From NCBI GenBank assembly GCA_024709425.1, contig JANJWS010000032.1, positions 1-64,000 of the forward strand: a stretch of 64,000 bases of DNA, read 5' to 3'. The stretch is from Thiobacillus sp. (GTDB taxonomy: Bacteria > Pseudomonadota > Gammaproteobacteria > Burkholderiales > Thiobacillaceae). Below are positions 1-7,857 of this stretch, piece by piece (position 1 is the first letter of the stretch; each line of letters opens with the position of its first letter). The translations under genes were made by a program, and so were the position numbers. The notes under the pieces were generated by a model that made no database searches, was not told the DNA's origin, and saw only the letters and a program-made list of their open reading frames with translations.

Positions 1-1678
1 CTCCGACTACAAGGTCGCGGTCGTGTCCAAGGTCTTCCCGACGCGCTCGCACACGGTGTCGGCGCAGGGCGGCATCACCGCCGCGCTCGCCAACGTCGAC
101 GACGACCGCTGGGAATGGCACATGTACGACACGGTCAAGGGCGGCGACTGGCTGGGCGACCAGGATGCGATCGAGTTCATGTGCCGCGAGGCGGCGAGTG
201 CGGTCTACGAGCTCGAACACATGGGCCTGCCGTTCTCGCGGCTGGACGACGGGCGGATCTATCAGCGCCGCTTCGGCGGCCAATCGAAGCACTTCGGCGG
301 CGAGCAGGCGACGCGTACCTGCGCCGCTGCCGACCGCACCGGTCACGCGCTGCTGCACACGCTGTATCAGCGGAACATCAAGCACCGTACGCAGTTCTTC
401 GACGAATATTTCGCACTGGATCTTCTGCGCGACGCCGAGGGCTACTGCCTCGGCGTCACCGCGCTGTCGATCGAGACCGGCGAGCCGATCCTGATTGAGG
501 CGCGTGCAACGCTGCTGGCCACCGGCGGGGCGGGACGCGTGTTCGGCAACAGCAGCAACGCCATGATCAACACCGGCGACGGCCTCGGCATGGTGCTGCG
601 CGCCGGCCTGCCGCTGCAGGACATGGAATTCTGGCAGTTCCATCCGACCGGCATCGCCGGCGTCGGCTGCCTCATCACCGAGGGCGCGCGTGGCGAGGGT
701 GGGTATCTGTTGAACCGGCACGGTGAGCGCTTCATGGAACGCTATGCCCCGCATGCAGGAGACCTCGCCGGGCGCGACGTGGTGGCGCGTGCCATCGCCA
801 TCGAAATCGCCGAAGGGCGCGGCTGCGGGTTGCATGGCGATTACGTCGACCTCAAGCTCGACCATCTCGGCGAGGCGGCCATCGCGCAGAAGCTGCCGGG
901 CATCCGCGAACTCTCCATCCGCTTCGCCGGCGTCGACCCCACCTCTGCGCCGATTCCCGTCGCGCCCACGGCGCACTACATGATGGGCGGCATTCCCGCC
1001 AACCTGCACGGACAGGTCGTCGCGCCGGCGCACTACGGCCCCGAGGAACCCGTGCCCGGTTTGTACGCCGTCGGCGAGTGCGCCTGCGTGTCGGTGCATG
1101 GCGCCAACCGCCTGGGTGGCAACTCGCTACTCGATCTCATCGTGTTCGGCCGCGCGGCCGGGCGCCACATGCTCGAAACCCTGCACGACAACCCCTATGC
1201 GCGCCCATTGCCGGAGAACGTGGCGGAGGGCAGTCTTGCGCGCCTGGCACGCTGGGGCGGCCGCGGCAGCGAGCGCGTGGCCGCCGTCACCGCCGACCTG
1301 CGCCGCACCATGCAGACAAACTGCGGCGTGTTCCGCACCGACAGCGTGCTGCGCGAGGGCCTCGCCGAACTGGACGCGCTCGAAGCGCGCCTGGCGCACG
1401 CTGGACTTTCCGACACCAGCCGCGTGTTCAATACCGCGCGCATCGAGGCGCTCGAACTGGAGAACCTCATCGGCGTAGCACGTGCGACGCTGGTCTCCGC
1501 GCTCGCTCGCAGCGAGAGCCGCGGCGCCCACACGCGCGAGGATCATCCGCAGCGCGATGACGAAAACTGGCTGCGCCACACGCTGTATACGCGGGACGGC
1601 GATCAGGTGGACACCAAGCCGGTACGCCTGAAGCCGCTGACGGTGGAGTCGATCCGGCCGATGGAACGGGTGTATTGA
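1..1678 (+). CDS. sdhA: Succinate dehydrogenase flavoprotein subunit, 5' truncated by window edge
   Basis: Catalytic FAD subunit of complex II; oxidises succinate to fumarate at the inner membrane. The reading frame is open from base 2, and residues [20 protein letters not shown] match an internal part of SdhA, so the true start and the FAD dinucleotide motif lie left of the window. The GTG at 23 is internal. The flavin-linking histidine region (SHTVSAQGG), the substrate region HYMMGG and the C-terminal [18 protein letters not shown] block are all present. sdhB follows 16 bases later, and sdhCD would be expected upstream. SdhE, the FAD-insertion factor, is encoded two genes downstream. Confidence 0.97.
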
Positions 1679-3932: not shown

Positions 3933-6629
3933 ATGAGCACGCGCGACTGGCATCGAAGCACCCCGCTGTATGCCGGCAACGCGGCATACCTGGAGGCGCT
4001 CGGTGACGAGGCCCTGGCGCCGTGGCTGGCGCAGTCGTTGCCCGACGAGACGCATTGCGCCGATGCGGCGCAGGTGGCGGTGCTCAGGCTCATCAACGCC
4101 TACCGCTATCTCGGCGTGCGCAAGGCCGATCTCGATCCGCTGCGCCGCTTCGAACCGCCGCCCACGCCGGAGCTCGATCCCGCCCACTATGGCCTCACCG
4201 GGTCCGATCTCGCGCGCGAATTCGAAACCGGCTCGCTGTGCGGCGTGGAGCGCACCACGCTGGCCGATATCCTCGAGCGTGTGCGCGGCGCCTACTGCGG
4301 GCGCATCGGCTTCGAGTACATGCACATCACCGACGTGGCGCGCAAGCGCTGGCTGCAGGAACGCATCGAATCGGCGCAGGGACGCTTCAACGTCAGCGCG
4401 GACCTGAAGAAGCAGTTGCTGAAGCGCCTCACCGACGCCGAGACGCTCGAAAAATTCCTTCATACCCGCCACGTCGGGCAGAAGCGCTTTTCGCTCGAAG
4501 GCGGGGAGAGCCTGATTCCGCTGCTGGATCTGGTCATCGCGCGCTGCGCCCGCCATGGTGCCCGGGAAATTGTGATGGGCATGGCGCACCGTGGGCGCAT
4601 CAACGTGCTGGTCAACCTGATGGGGCGCACCGTCGACAGCCTCTATGCGGAGCCGGCGAACGGCGACCCGGATTCGCCGCTGTCGGGCGACGTCAAGTAC
4701 CACCAGGGCTTTTCCACCGACATCGCCACCGAGTACGGCCCGGTGCACTTCGCGCTGGCGTTCAATCCCTCGCACCTGGAGATCGTGCATCCGGTGGTGC
4801 GCGGTTCGGTGCGCGCGCGTCAGGACCGGCGTGCCGACGTGCTTGGCTACGAGGTGGTGCCGGTGATCCTGCACGGCGACGCTGCGCTGTCGGGGCAGGG
4901 CGTGGTGATGGAAAGCCTCAACATGTCGCAGACGCGCGGCTTCCGCAACAACGGCGCCATCCACATCGTCATCAACAACCAGATCGGCTTTACCACCTCC
5001 GACCCGCGCGACGTGCGTTCGACGCTGTATTGCACCGACGTCGCCAAGATGGTCGAGGCGCCGGTGCTGCACGTCAACGGCGACGATCCGGAGGCCGTGG
5101 CGTTCGCGGTGCAGACCGCGGTCGATTTCCGCTACACCTTCCACAAGAACTGCTTCATCGACCTGGTGTGCTACCGCCGCCACGGCCACAACGAGCAGGA
5201 CGAACCGCTCGCCACGCAGCCCCTCATGTACCGGCGCATCAATGCGCATCCCAGCACGCGCGTGCTCTACGCGCAGCGCCTGGTCGATGAGGGCGTGGTC
5301 ACCCAGGCACAGGCGGACGACCTGGTCGACCGCTGCCGCGACCGCCTGGAACATGGCGAATCGCTGAGCCCGCCGGCGCCATCCGACTTCAAGGAGACCT
5401 TCGGCACGCACTGGGGACGCTTCCGCGGCAGGAATCCCGGGGACGTGCCGACCGCGGTGCCTGCCGAGCGCCTGGATTTTCTCGGCGAGCGCATCACCAC
5501 CCTGGAACATGAGATCGAATTGCACCCACGGGTACAGAAGGTGCTCGACGACCGCCGCAGGATGCGCGCGAGCGAGTTGCCCCTCGACTGGGGCTACGCC
5601 GAGACGCTCGCCTACGCCAGCCTGCTCGACGCCGGGCACAACGTGCGCCTGTCCGGCCAGGATTCGGCGCGCGGCACCTTCTTCCACCGCCACGCCGTGT
5701 GGCACGACCAGAAGCGCGAGCGCCGCCAGAGCGGCGTCTACATCCCGCTCGAACACATTCACGAGCGCCAGGGCAGCTTCACCGTCATCGACTCGCTGCT
5801 GTCGGAGGAGGCGGTGTTGGCCTTCGAGTACGGCTACGCGACGGCCGACCCGGACACCCTGGTGGTGTGGGAAGCGCAGTTCGGCGACTTCGCCAACGGC
5901 GCGCAGGTGGTGATCGACCAGTTCATCACCAGCGGTGAGGCGAAGTGGGGCCGCTTGTGCGGGCTCACCCTGCTGCTGCCGCACGGCTTCGAGGGGCAGG
6001 GGCCGGAGCATTCCTCGGCGAGGCTCGAACGCTTCCTGCAATTGTGCGCGCAGGACAACATCCAGGTGTGCGTGCCGACGCTGCCCGCGCAGATGTTCCA
6101 CCTGCTGCGGCGGCAGATCGTGCGGCCGGCGCGCAAGCCGCTCATCGTGCTCACGCCGAAGAGCCTGTTGCGCCATCCGGCCTCGACGTCCTCGCTGAAG
6201 GAACTCAGCGCGGGTGCGTTCCGTTCCGTGATCGACGATCCGCGTGCACCGCGCCGCGCCAAGCGCGTGGTCGCATGCAGCGGCCGCGTGTGGTTCGATC
6301 TCGAAGCCGCGCGCACCGAGCGGGGGCTGGATGACGTTGCACTGCTACGCGTCGAACAGCTTTATCCCTTCCCGGAAGAGACATTGCGCGATGTCCTGCA
6401 TGCCTATCCCCACGATGCGACCTTCGTCTGGGCGCAGGAGGAACCGATGAACCAGGGCGCGTGGTACCAGATCCTGCACCACCTCAACCATTGCGTGCCG
6501 CCAGGACGGCGCTTCCACTACGCGGGCCGTCCACCCGCCGCCGCACCCGCTTCGGGCTATGTGTCGCGCCACCGTGCCGAACTGGAAGCGCTCATACAGG
6601 ATGCGCTGGAGAACCCGTATGCGAATTGA
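3933..6629 (+). CDS. odhA: 2-oxoglutarate dehydrogenase E1 component
   Basis: Thiamine diphosphate-dependent decarboxylase of the 2-oxoglutarate dehydrogenase complex, 898 residues. Typical E1o segments are present: an N-terminal region ending in YGLTGSDL, the [14 protein letters not shown] motif, [14 protein letters not shown], the cofactor-region [12 protein letters not shown], and the C-terminal transketolase-like half ([32 protein letters not shown]). It starts 18 bases after gltA and overlaps odhB by 11 bases. No lesion was seen, so E1 looks intact although its E2 partner is abnormal. Confidence 0.96.
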
Positions 6630-7857
6630 CGTGCGCGTGCCCACCTTGTCCGACTCGGTCGCCAGCGGCACCCTGTTGCCATGGCGCCGCCAGGCCGGCG
6701 ACACGGTGGCGCGCGACGAGACCCTGGTCGATCTCGAAACCGACAAGGTCATCCTGGAAATTCCGGCTCCTGCGTCCGGCACGCTGGTCGAGGTCATTCG
6801 CGGCGAGGGCGGGTCGGTGAAAGCGGACGAGGTCATCGCCGTCATCGAGACGGGGGAGGGCGTGGTCGTTGGCGGGGCGAGCCCTCTGATGAGGCCTCCA
6901 GTCGATCGACCAAGCCCGCAAGCGGGCAAGGCGCCGCTTATCCCGCCCGCGGGAGAGGGGGTGAACGTAATGCCCACACCGATGGCTTCGCCGCCCTCTG
7001 ATGGAACTACTGGCCAAGCAACCACGCCCGCGAGCGGGCAAGTCGCTGGTTATCCCCAACCCTCCCCGTCAATCGGGTTGGGCCCAGCTTTTTTCCCCTC
7101 TCCCGTTGGGGGGAGAGGGCAGGGAGAGGGGATTGGGGAGGTGGCAAACGTGATGCCCACACCGATTAACCGCGAGCCGATGTCGCGGCTGCGCCAGCGC
7201 ATCGCCGAGCGTCTGGTGGCGGCGCAGCATACGGCCGCCATGCTCACCACCTTCAACGAAGTGAACATGGGCCCGGTCAACGCACTGCGTCAGCGCTACA
7301 AGGCGGAGTTCGAGGTGAAGCACGGCGTCAAGCTGGGCTACATGTCCTTCTTCGTGCGCGCGGCGTGCGCGGCGCTGGAGCAGTTCCCCGTCGTCAATGC
7401 CGCCATCGACGGCAACGATATCGTCTGGCACGCCGATGCCGACATCGGCATTGCCATTTCCACGCCGCGCGGGCTGGTGGTGCCGATCCTGCGCCGCGCG
7501 CAGACGCTCTCCGCGCCTCAGATCGAGAAGGGCATCGCCGATTTCTCCGGTCGCGCGCGCGACGGTCGCCTCACACTGGACGAGCTGGCCGGCGGCACCT
7601 TCTCCATCACCAACGGCGGGGTGTTCGGTTCGCTGCTGTCGACCCCCATCCTCAACCCCCCGCAGTCGGCCATCCTCGGCATGCACGCCATCCAGGAACG
7701 CCCGGTCGCCGAGCACGGACAGGTCGTGGTGCGGCCGATGATGTATCTCGCGCTGACCTACGACCATCGCCTCATCGACGGCCGTGATGCGGTGCAGTTC
7801 CTGGTCGCGGTCAAAGCCGCGCTGGAGTCACCGGAGGTGCTGTTGGGTGAAGTCTGA
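6619..7857 (+). CDS. odhB: 2-oxoglutarate dehydrogenase E2 component with repeat-derived linker, PSBD not found
   Basis: Dihydrolipoamide succinyltransferase, 412 residues from ATG 6619. The N-terminal lipoyl domain (about 1-80) has its lysine in ETDKVILEI (K43). The catalytic domain (about 184-412) ends with the active-site motif [14 protein letters not shown]. Between them, residues about 85-183 are low-complexity sequence encoded by dispersed repeats (6882-6944, 6994-7056, 7095-7133). I see no peripheral subunit-binding domain, the roughly 35-residue module that docks E3. The frame is intact throughout. The peptide NVMPTP occurs twice, encoded by 20-base near-identical direct repeats at 6964-6983 and 7147-7166. 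No odhL gene follows. Whether the protein still assembles a complex cannot be judged from sequence. Confidence 0.93.
6882..6944 (+). repeat. Dispersed repeat unit A, copy 1, inside odhB
   Basis: About 63 bases from CCCTCTGATGAGG to CTTATCC, with the hairpin core GCCCGCAAGCGGGC at 6914-6927. Its closest relative in the window is at 63904; a diverged copy lies at 6994. It is translated as part of the odhB linker. Confidence 0.75.
6994..7056 (+). repeat. Dispersed repeat unit A, copy 2 (diverged), inside odhB
   Basis: Begins CCCTCTGATG, keeps the hairpin core GCCCGCGAGCGGGC and ends TTATCCCC. It is diverged from copies 1 and 3 between start and hairpin. It lies between the two 20-base direct repeats (6964-6983 and 7147-7166). 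Confidence 0.6.
7095..7133. repeat. CCCTCTCCC palindromic repeat inside odhB
   Basis: CCCCTCTCCC, short loop, GGGGGGAGAGGG, then a second GGGAGAGGGG half. It belongs to the window-wide palindrome family also seen in hsdR, dnaE2, around the DUF559 gene and upstream of dapD. It is in frame and contributes the glycine/arginine stretch GGRGQGEG to OdhB. Confidence 0.75.

Follow-up and report, generated by a model that had tools for sequence, protein, structure and literature searches.

Absence of the E3-binding domain from the 2-oxoglutarate dehydrogenase E2 of Thiobacillus and its relatives

A 64,000-nucleotide stretch of a Thiobacillus draft genome (hereafter, the window) was analyzed in this study, which revealed that the E2 subunit of its 2-oxoglutarate dehydrogenase (E2o) is without the peripheral subunit-binding domain (PSBD) on which E3 docks. 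The distinctive feature of this protein is the missing domain, which is common to a whole clade, and not the repeat found in its linker. E2o requires E3 for reoxidizing its lipoyl groups. With a probability of roughly 0.55, we consider that the 2-oxoglutarate dehydrogenase complex (ODH) of these bacteria is reoxidized by the E3 of pyruvate dehydrogenase (PDH), whether by contact in trans or as part of a hybrid complex, and that the two would be weakly coupled. The window genome (G000) is a draft of 2.7 Mb in 109 contigs, with 90.5% completeness and 6% contamination, and the named loci closest to it place it in Thiobacillus.

The odhA/sucA gene encoding E1o (898 aa, 3933..6629, forward strand) scored above the NF006914/TIGR00239 cut-off, and a Pfam scan of this E1o identified no additional domain. 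Its 3′ end overlaps the start of odhB/sucB (3933-6629 vs 6619-7857, both on the forward strand), which encodes an E2o of 412 aa in a single uninterrupted frame (6619..7857). NCBIfam models assign this E2o to sucB (TIGR01347, 468.1 bits against a cut-off of 378.65; NF004309, 488.2 bits against 449), and its best eight solved-structure chains are all named succinyltransferases. As in the original prediction, its lipoyl and catalytic domains are normal: Pfam identified a lipoyl domain (PF00364) at residues 4-76 (6628..6846, forward strand) and a succinyltransferase catalytic domain (PF00198) at residues 183-409 (7165..7845, forward strand), the latter with an intact YDHR..DG motif in the alignment. 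Lys43, which we take to be the lipoyl-bearing lysine, and His383 and Asp387, presumably catalytic, are invariant in 81 E2o rows. The sucB scores and the two domains with their key residues identify the protein as an E2 of 2-oxoglutarate dehydrogenase, and it differs from the lipoyl-PSBD-catalytic architecture of bacterial E2o in the PSBD.

The absence of the E3-docking domain, which had also been predicted, is real and was confirmed by several lines of evidence. No match to PF02817 was found at E≤10 in the window E2o or in a scan of the linker only (6850-7200). A custom PSBD profile gave E=4.5 and 2.9 bits for this protein, whereas every PSBD-bearing E2o in the set reached ≤7.5e-7. The place expected for the PSBD is occupied by a disordered linker (6847..7164, forward strand); in the AlphaFold2 model, most of residues 85-174 have pLDDT <50 and form neither helix nor strand. 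The control model, of the PSBD-bearing E2o from Chromatium okenii, contains helices at residues 107-110, 113-121, and 140-152, with pLDDT of 81-83 over residues 111-150 that correspond to its PSBD, and was obtained from a shallower alignment (21 rows) than that of the window E2o (81 rows).

The aligned relatives of the same genus are without the domain as well. In an alignment of 30 E2o, the PSBD is present in none of the 20 from the same genus (window counted) and in all 10 from other families of the order; genomes with no locus or only a fragment were left out, five from the same genus (G003, G008, G018, G020, and G021) and six others (G026, G028, G030, G032, G037, and G039). A Pfam scan of 81 E2o identified PF02817 in 23 and none in 58, and the custom profile divided them again into 23 and 58 with scores that do not overlap. 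The 58 PSBD-less rows form one side of one branch in a 91-row E2o tree built with the linker removed, which corresponds to one change, and the branch of 28 PSBD-less rows in a 56-row tree is supported by 100/98. This branch covers Thiobacillus, Sulfuriferula, and relatives. Counts from the different sets overlap and are not additive, since identical coordinates show that G043 = G002 and G049 = G133, and several of the loci named here are from genomes already in the same-genus set. The PSBD-less clade is placed next to Chromatiaceae in the E2o tree (support 82/76); acquisition of odhAB by horizontal transfer from a donor resembling Chromatium was considered and dropped because grouping with other Burkholderiales was not rejected (p-AU 0.435).

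In a survey of the order, an E2o match was obtained in 131 of 150 genomes, and a PSBD-less E2o was confirmed in seven, all in three families, with six contig-cut frames left unjudged. A wide loss across the order had been suspected from eight late-starting alignments (G074, G078, G091, G095, G136, G140, G178, and G181) and was rejected because a PF02817 search found the PSBD in every one of these E2o frames. In the class, 111 of 143 genomes gave an E2o match; among 14 late-starting candidates, the PSBD is present in 10, and G263 is contig-cut and unjudged. Beyond the window, the E2o of G308 (L245) is without a PSBD, those of G306 (L249) and G253 (L247) contain about half a PSBD by our reading of the sequence, and that of G209 has a divergent PSBD with lpd present after odhB. 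G308, G306, and G253 belong to other families of the class, and no lpd was found in them within about 3 kb after odhB. Loss of the PSBD from E2o probably happened more than once in the class, with the Thiobacillus clade as the large case.

We identified no lpd frame beside odhB in 57 PSBD-less loci (at least 2 kb downstream of odhB is covered in 52 of them), compared with 15 of 23 PSBD-bearing loci, a count that includes frames overlapping the odhB end (8 of 23 for non-overlapping frames alone). The eight PSBD-bearing loci without a linked lpd include Chromatiaceae and Methylococcales, so unlinking alone was not the cause of PSBD loss. Across 25 genomes of the same genus, exactly one PF02817 match was found in 21 and none in four, which are 75-85% complete; 20 of the 21 single matches are in frames of 811-1121 residues, and that of G007 is in a 162-residue frame. 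The window genome encodes a fused PDH E2p-E3 of 1009 residues (contig C40, L048:3429-6458, reverse strand) composed of lipoyl, lipoyl, PSBD, acetyltransferase, and E3 domains, and adjoined by PDH E1 alpha and beta genes above cut-off. Its E3 part scored 363.8 bits against TIGR01350, below the cut-off of 408.8, but no other NCBIfam family gave this protein a higher score.

Such a fused PDH E2-E3 protein is present in most PSBD-less genomes examined. A further set comprised 22 PSBD-less genomes identified through their loci. The PSBD and E3 are in one frame of 988-1124 residues in 14 of these, and in seven the PSBD is in a separate frame adjoining an E3 frame of 596-636 residues; in 21 of the 22, therefore, the sole PSBD sits with E3 in PDH, and no PSBD was found in the remaining genome, G058. 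Loci were available for six of those seven. In each, the frame carrying the PSBD scores as a dihydrolipoyl acetyltransferase above cut-off, and the frame after it opens with a lipoyl domain that leads into the beginning of E3. The genes of G142, outside the 22, are arranged likewise, and its lipoyl-E3 is complete.

A search for E3 homologues (E≤1e-30) identified one each, in the PDH locus, in the near-complete genomes G023 (single contig), G014, G142, and G183, and two or three in six other PSBD-less genomes (G000, G010, G032, G097, G111, and G133); the extra homologues of the last five are all below the Lpd cut-off. A C37 protein of the window genome (L057) was considered as the E3 of ODH and rejected, since the PRK06370 FAD-containing oxidoreductase family fits it better (502.7 bits, below its own cut-off, vs 390.6 for Lpd). 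The gene for this Lpd-like flavoprotein is located directly 3′ of an arsenosugar-biosynthesis radical-SAM gene (ArsS, above cut-off). True stand-alone Lpd proteins were identified in G004, G012, and G015, where their genes lie between OsmC- and GcvH-family genes (by Pfam in L073, and by similar neighboring frames in L074 and L075), and Lpd in this neighborhood may be a sulfur-oxidation E3. Thiobacillus thioparus (G046, L116) encodes two stand-alone Lpd above cut-off, one fused E3, and one weaker homologue. The stand-alone Lpd of these four genomes could serve E2o.

The following sequence of events would account for these observations. In Thiobacillus, Sulfuriferula, and relatives, a lineage in which no lpd adjoins the odhAB operon, the PSBD was lost from E2o, most simply once in their ancestor. 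A disordered Ala/Pro-rich linker now connects the lipoyl and catalytic domains, and in-frame repeat insertions lengthened it later in some species, the Thiobacillus of the window among them. With neither a docking site on E2o nor a gene for E3 beside odhAB, the reduced lipoyl arms of E2o would have to be reoxidized by the E3 of PDH, which in most of the clade examined is fused to E2p, also the carrier of the only PSBD detected in the genome. Since this E3 would be supplied in trans or through a PDH-ODH hybrid, coupling is expected to be weak, and the assembly might break up in dilute extracts. The absence of the domain, its single branch on the tree, the linkage and fusion patterns, and the selection on these genes are observed, whereas reliance on the PDH E3, its contact with E2o in trans or in a hybrid, and any connection with the missing activity are what we infer; the suggestion in the original prediction of a complex with poor or altered E3 binding is still our best guess.

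Two known systems resemble this arrangement in part. In actinobacteria, according to two published accounts, ODH works with PDH E2p and Lpd in a hybrid PDH-ODH complex of AceE, AceF, Lpd, and OdhA (PMC7568260, PMC10581250). OdhA is an E1o fused to a succinyltransferase domain, whereas E1o and E2o of the window are encoded by separate genes, E2o keeps its own lipoyl domain, and E2p and E3 form a fusion in most genomes examined; the likeness lies in the hybrid complex that gene content suggests for the Thiobacillus clade. We tentatively propose, at less than even odds, that this clade may contain a second, independent PDH-ODH hybrid, in which E2p and E3 form one polypeptide that carries the only E3-binding domain of the cell, and in some species the only E3, and in which the E2o lipoyl groups would use this shared E3. 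If this is true, weak coupling would cause ODH activity to disappear on cell breakage, which would explain the reported "incomplete Krebs cycle" of these obligate autotrophs.

The other system is eukaryotic. A 2023 paper describes eukaryotic E2o as containing lipoyl and catalytic domains, with an unstructured Ala/Pro loop instead of a PSBD, and as having the adaptor MRPS36, and states that prokaryotic E2o have preserved the PSBD throughout (PMC9974300). The E2o of the Thiobacillus clade is similar to the eukaryotic E2o (DLST) with MRPS36/KGD4 in being PSBD-less with an Ala/Pro linker; it differs in that it is bacterial, with a presumably independent loss and no known adaptor, and in that the clade keeps its only detected PSBD, and usually E3 too, in the PDH E2. 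A whole PSBD-less bacterial clade, together with the further cases in the class, contradicts the 2023 statement, and provides bacteria for studying life without the domain. Compared with E2o of the Escherichia coli SucB type, the window protein is a sucB by models but is without the PSBD and an odh-linked lpd. Among the titles and beginnings of abstracts retrieved by searches of open-licence literature, none reports a PSBD-less bacterial E2o or an E2p-E3 fusion.

Missing 2-oxoglutarate dehydrogenase activity is held to underlie obligate autotrophy. The T. thioparus genome paper reports genes for E1 and E2 but none for E3. According to the same paper, extracts of a T. thioparus strain, which is not DSM 505 and may be another species, showed no alpha-ketoglutarate dehydrogenase activity, and neither did extracts of T. 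denitrificans despite its E1-E3 genes (PMC5248467). The low need for 2-oxoglutarate oxidation suggested in the original prediction is consistent with Thiobacillus and with these reported extracts. Because E3 genes were found in T. thioparus G046, the reported absence of E3 is better taken to mean that none lies beside odhAB. The missing E3 docking offers a concrete, testable cause for E1 and E2 genes without 2-oxoglutarate dehydrogenase activity and may help to explain it. The E2o of Sulfuriferula multivorans (L118), which we take to be capable of heterotrophic growth, is also PSBD-less, and therefore loss of the PSBD alone is not equivalent to loss of function or obligate autotrophy. Comparison of the window with five relatives (NG86, custom script) gave dN/dS values of 0.055-0.258 for the lipoyl domain, 0.107-0.21 for the E2o catalytic domain, and 0.072-0.18 for E1o. 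These low values and the invariant lipoyl and catalytic residues indicate that the E1o and E2o proteins are under maintenance, and this purifying selection argues against the early decay that had been suggested.

The same extracts, with E1 and E2 genes and no activity in the T. thioparus strain and in T. denitrificans, together with the lack of an lpd linked to odhAB, are also consistent with an E1o-E2o that is no more an NAD-linked dehydrogenase and has another job, such as non-oxidative decarboxylation or a differently fed transacylation, for which docking is dispensable. The intact and constrained lipoyl and catalytic domains, as well as the uncertain species of the assayed T. thioparus strain, argue against this possibility, which we regard as unlikely. 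A new docking element that replaces the PSBD, either a linker motif (VPLP; DSGPHR/CPPC) or an adaptor like MRPS36/KGD4 in mitochondria, is quite unlikely. A [VIMAL]PLP motif is conserved in 25 of 39 Thiobacillus linkers (shuffles: mean 1.1, maximum 6), and its retention in some of these linkers makes another docking element possible; however, common ancestry inflates this count, and the motif varies among subclades and is not present in the E2o linker of the window itself. DSGPHR.. and CPPC.. types of motif, each subclade-specific by eye and located just before the catalytic domain (L112, L113, L141, L154, and L163; L142, L143, and L158), are possible candidates for new docking elements, while MRPS36 is without prokaryotic orthologues according to the 2023 paper (PMC9974300).

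The linker of the window E2o has about 105 residues, of which about 95 are derived from dispersed genomic repeats, so the original prediction of a continuous frame with a repeat-derived linker was borne out. A search of the genome with 6870-7170 found at least 39 matching pieces (E≤0.01, self counted), with scores computed for 40 of 86 candidates; several pieces adjoin one another. The best non-self match among these 40 is 3e-31, and the matches jointly span bases 11-301 of the 301-base query, which correspond to E2o residues from about 88 onward. This repeat content is far above chance. On the forward strand, the linker contains two 64-base copies of repeat unit A (6881..6944, and 6993..7056 with 75% to copy 1), which has further copies elsewhere in the genome; two copies of a 32-base repeat (6952..6983, with an NVMPTP-coding stretch at its end, and 7135..7166 with 84% to copy 1); and a palindrome, CCCTCTCCC/GGGAGAGGG (7096..7119), which was read in the sequence and is spanned by genome matches. 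The linkers of the other 57 PSBD-less E2o range from 49 to 105 residues (median 63), with about 20% Ala and about 20% Pro. Only two of them (L087 and L091) match the window linker in blastn and 55 do not, and palindrome-core patterns are present in eight and absent in 49.

It had been proposed that insertion or recombination of repeats replaced the docking module in the window species. Although the linker is derived from repeats, sister species without these repeats are also PSBD-less, as are all 20 E2o of the genus, and the loss falls on a single branch, which refutes this proposal and leaves it very improbable. Since relatives without such repeats are PSBD-less too, the repeats arrived after PSBD loss; the original prediction is thus partly supported, in that its observation holds and its causal inference fails. 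An artefact of assembly or binning of a metagenome-assembled genome has a negligible probability: the window genome is a draft with 109 contigs and 6% contamination, but PSBD-less E2o were also found in the single-contig genomes G010, G023, and G097 and in many separately deposited assemblies, and this explanation is likewise refuted.

Rickettsia palindromic elements are dispersed palindromic repeats that occur in frame within protein genes. The repeats described here are similar in being in frame, and differ in that they were inserted into a linker already without the domain. The repeat of the window linker is also found, in the same reading frame, within a frame encoding a PD-(D/E)XK nuclease domain (L003, approximately 1507-1583, forward strand), where its placement resembles that of in-frame palindromic elements. 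Other copies are located just upstream of truB (L005) and of a thioredoxin gene (L008) and are readable in frame with each. The E2o linker of L111 contains a different repeat-like peptide, VIASEAKQSS, which is presumably a translated repeat.
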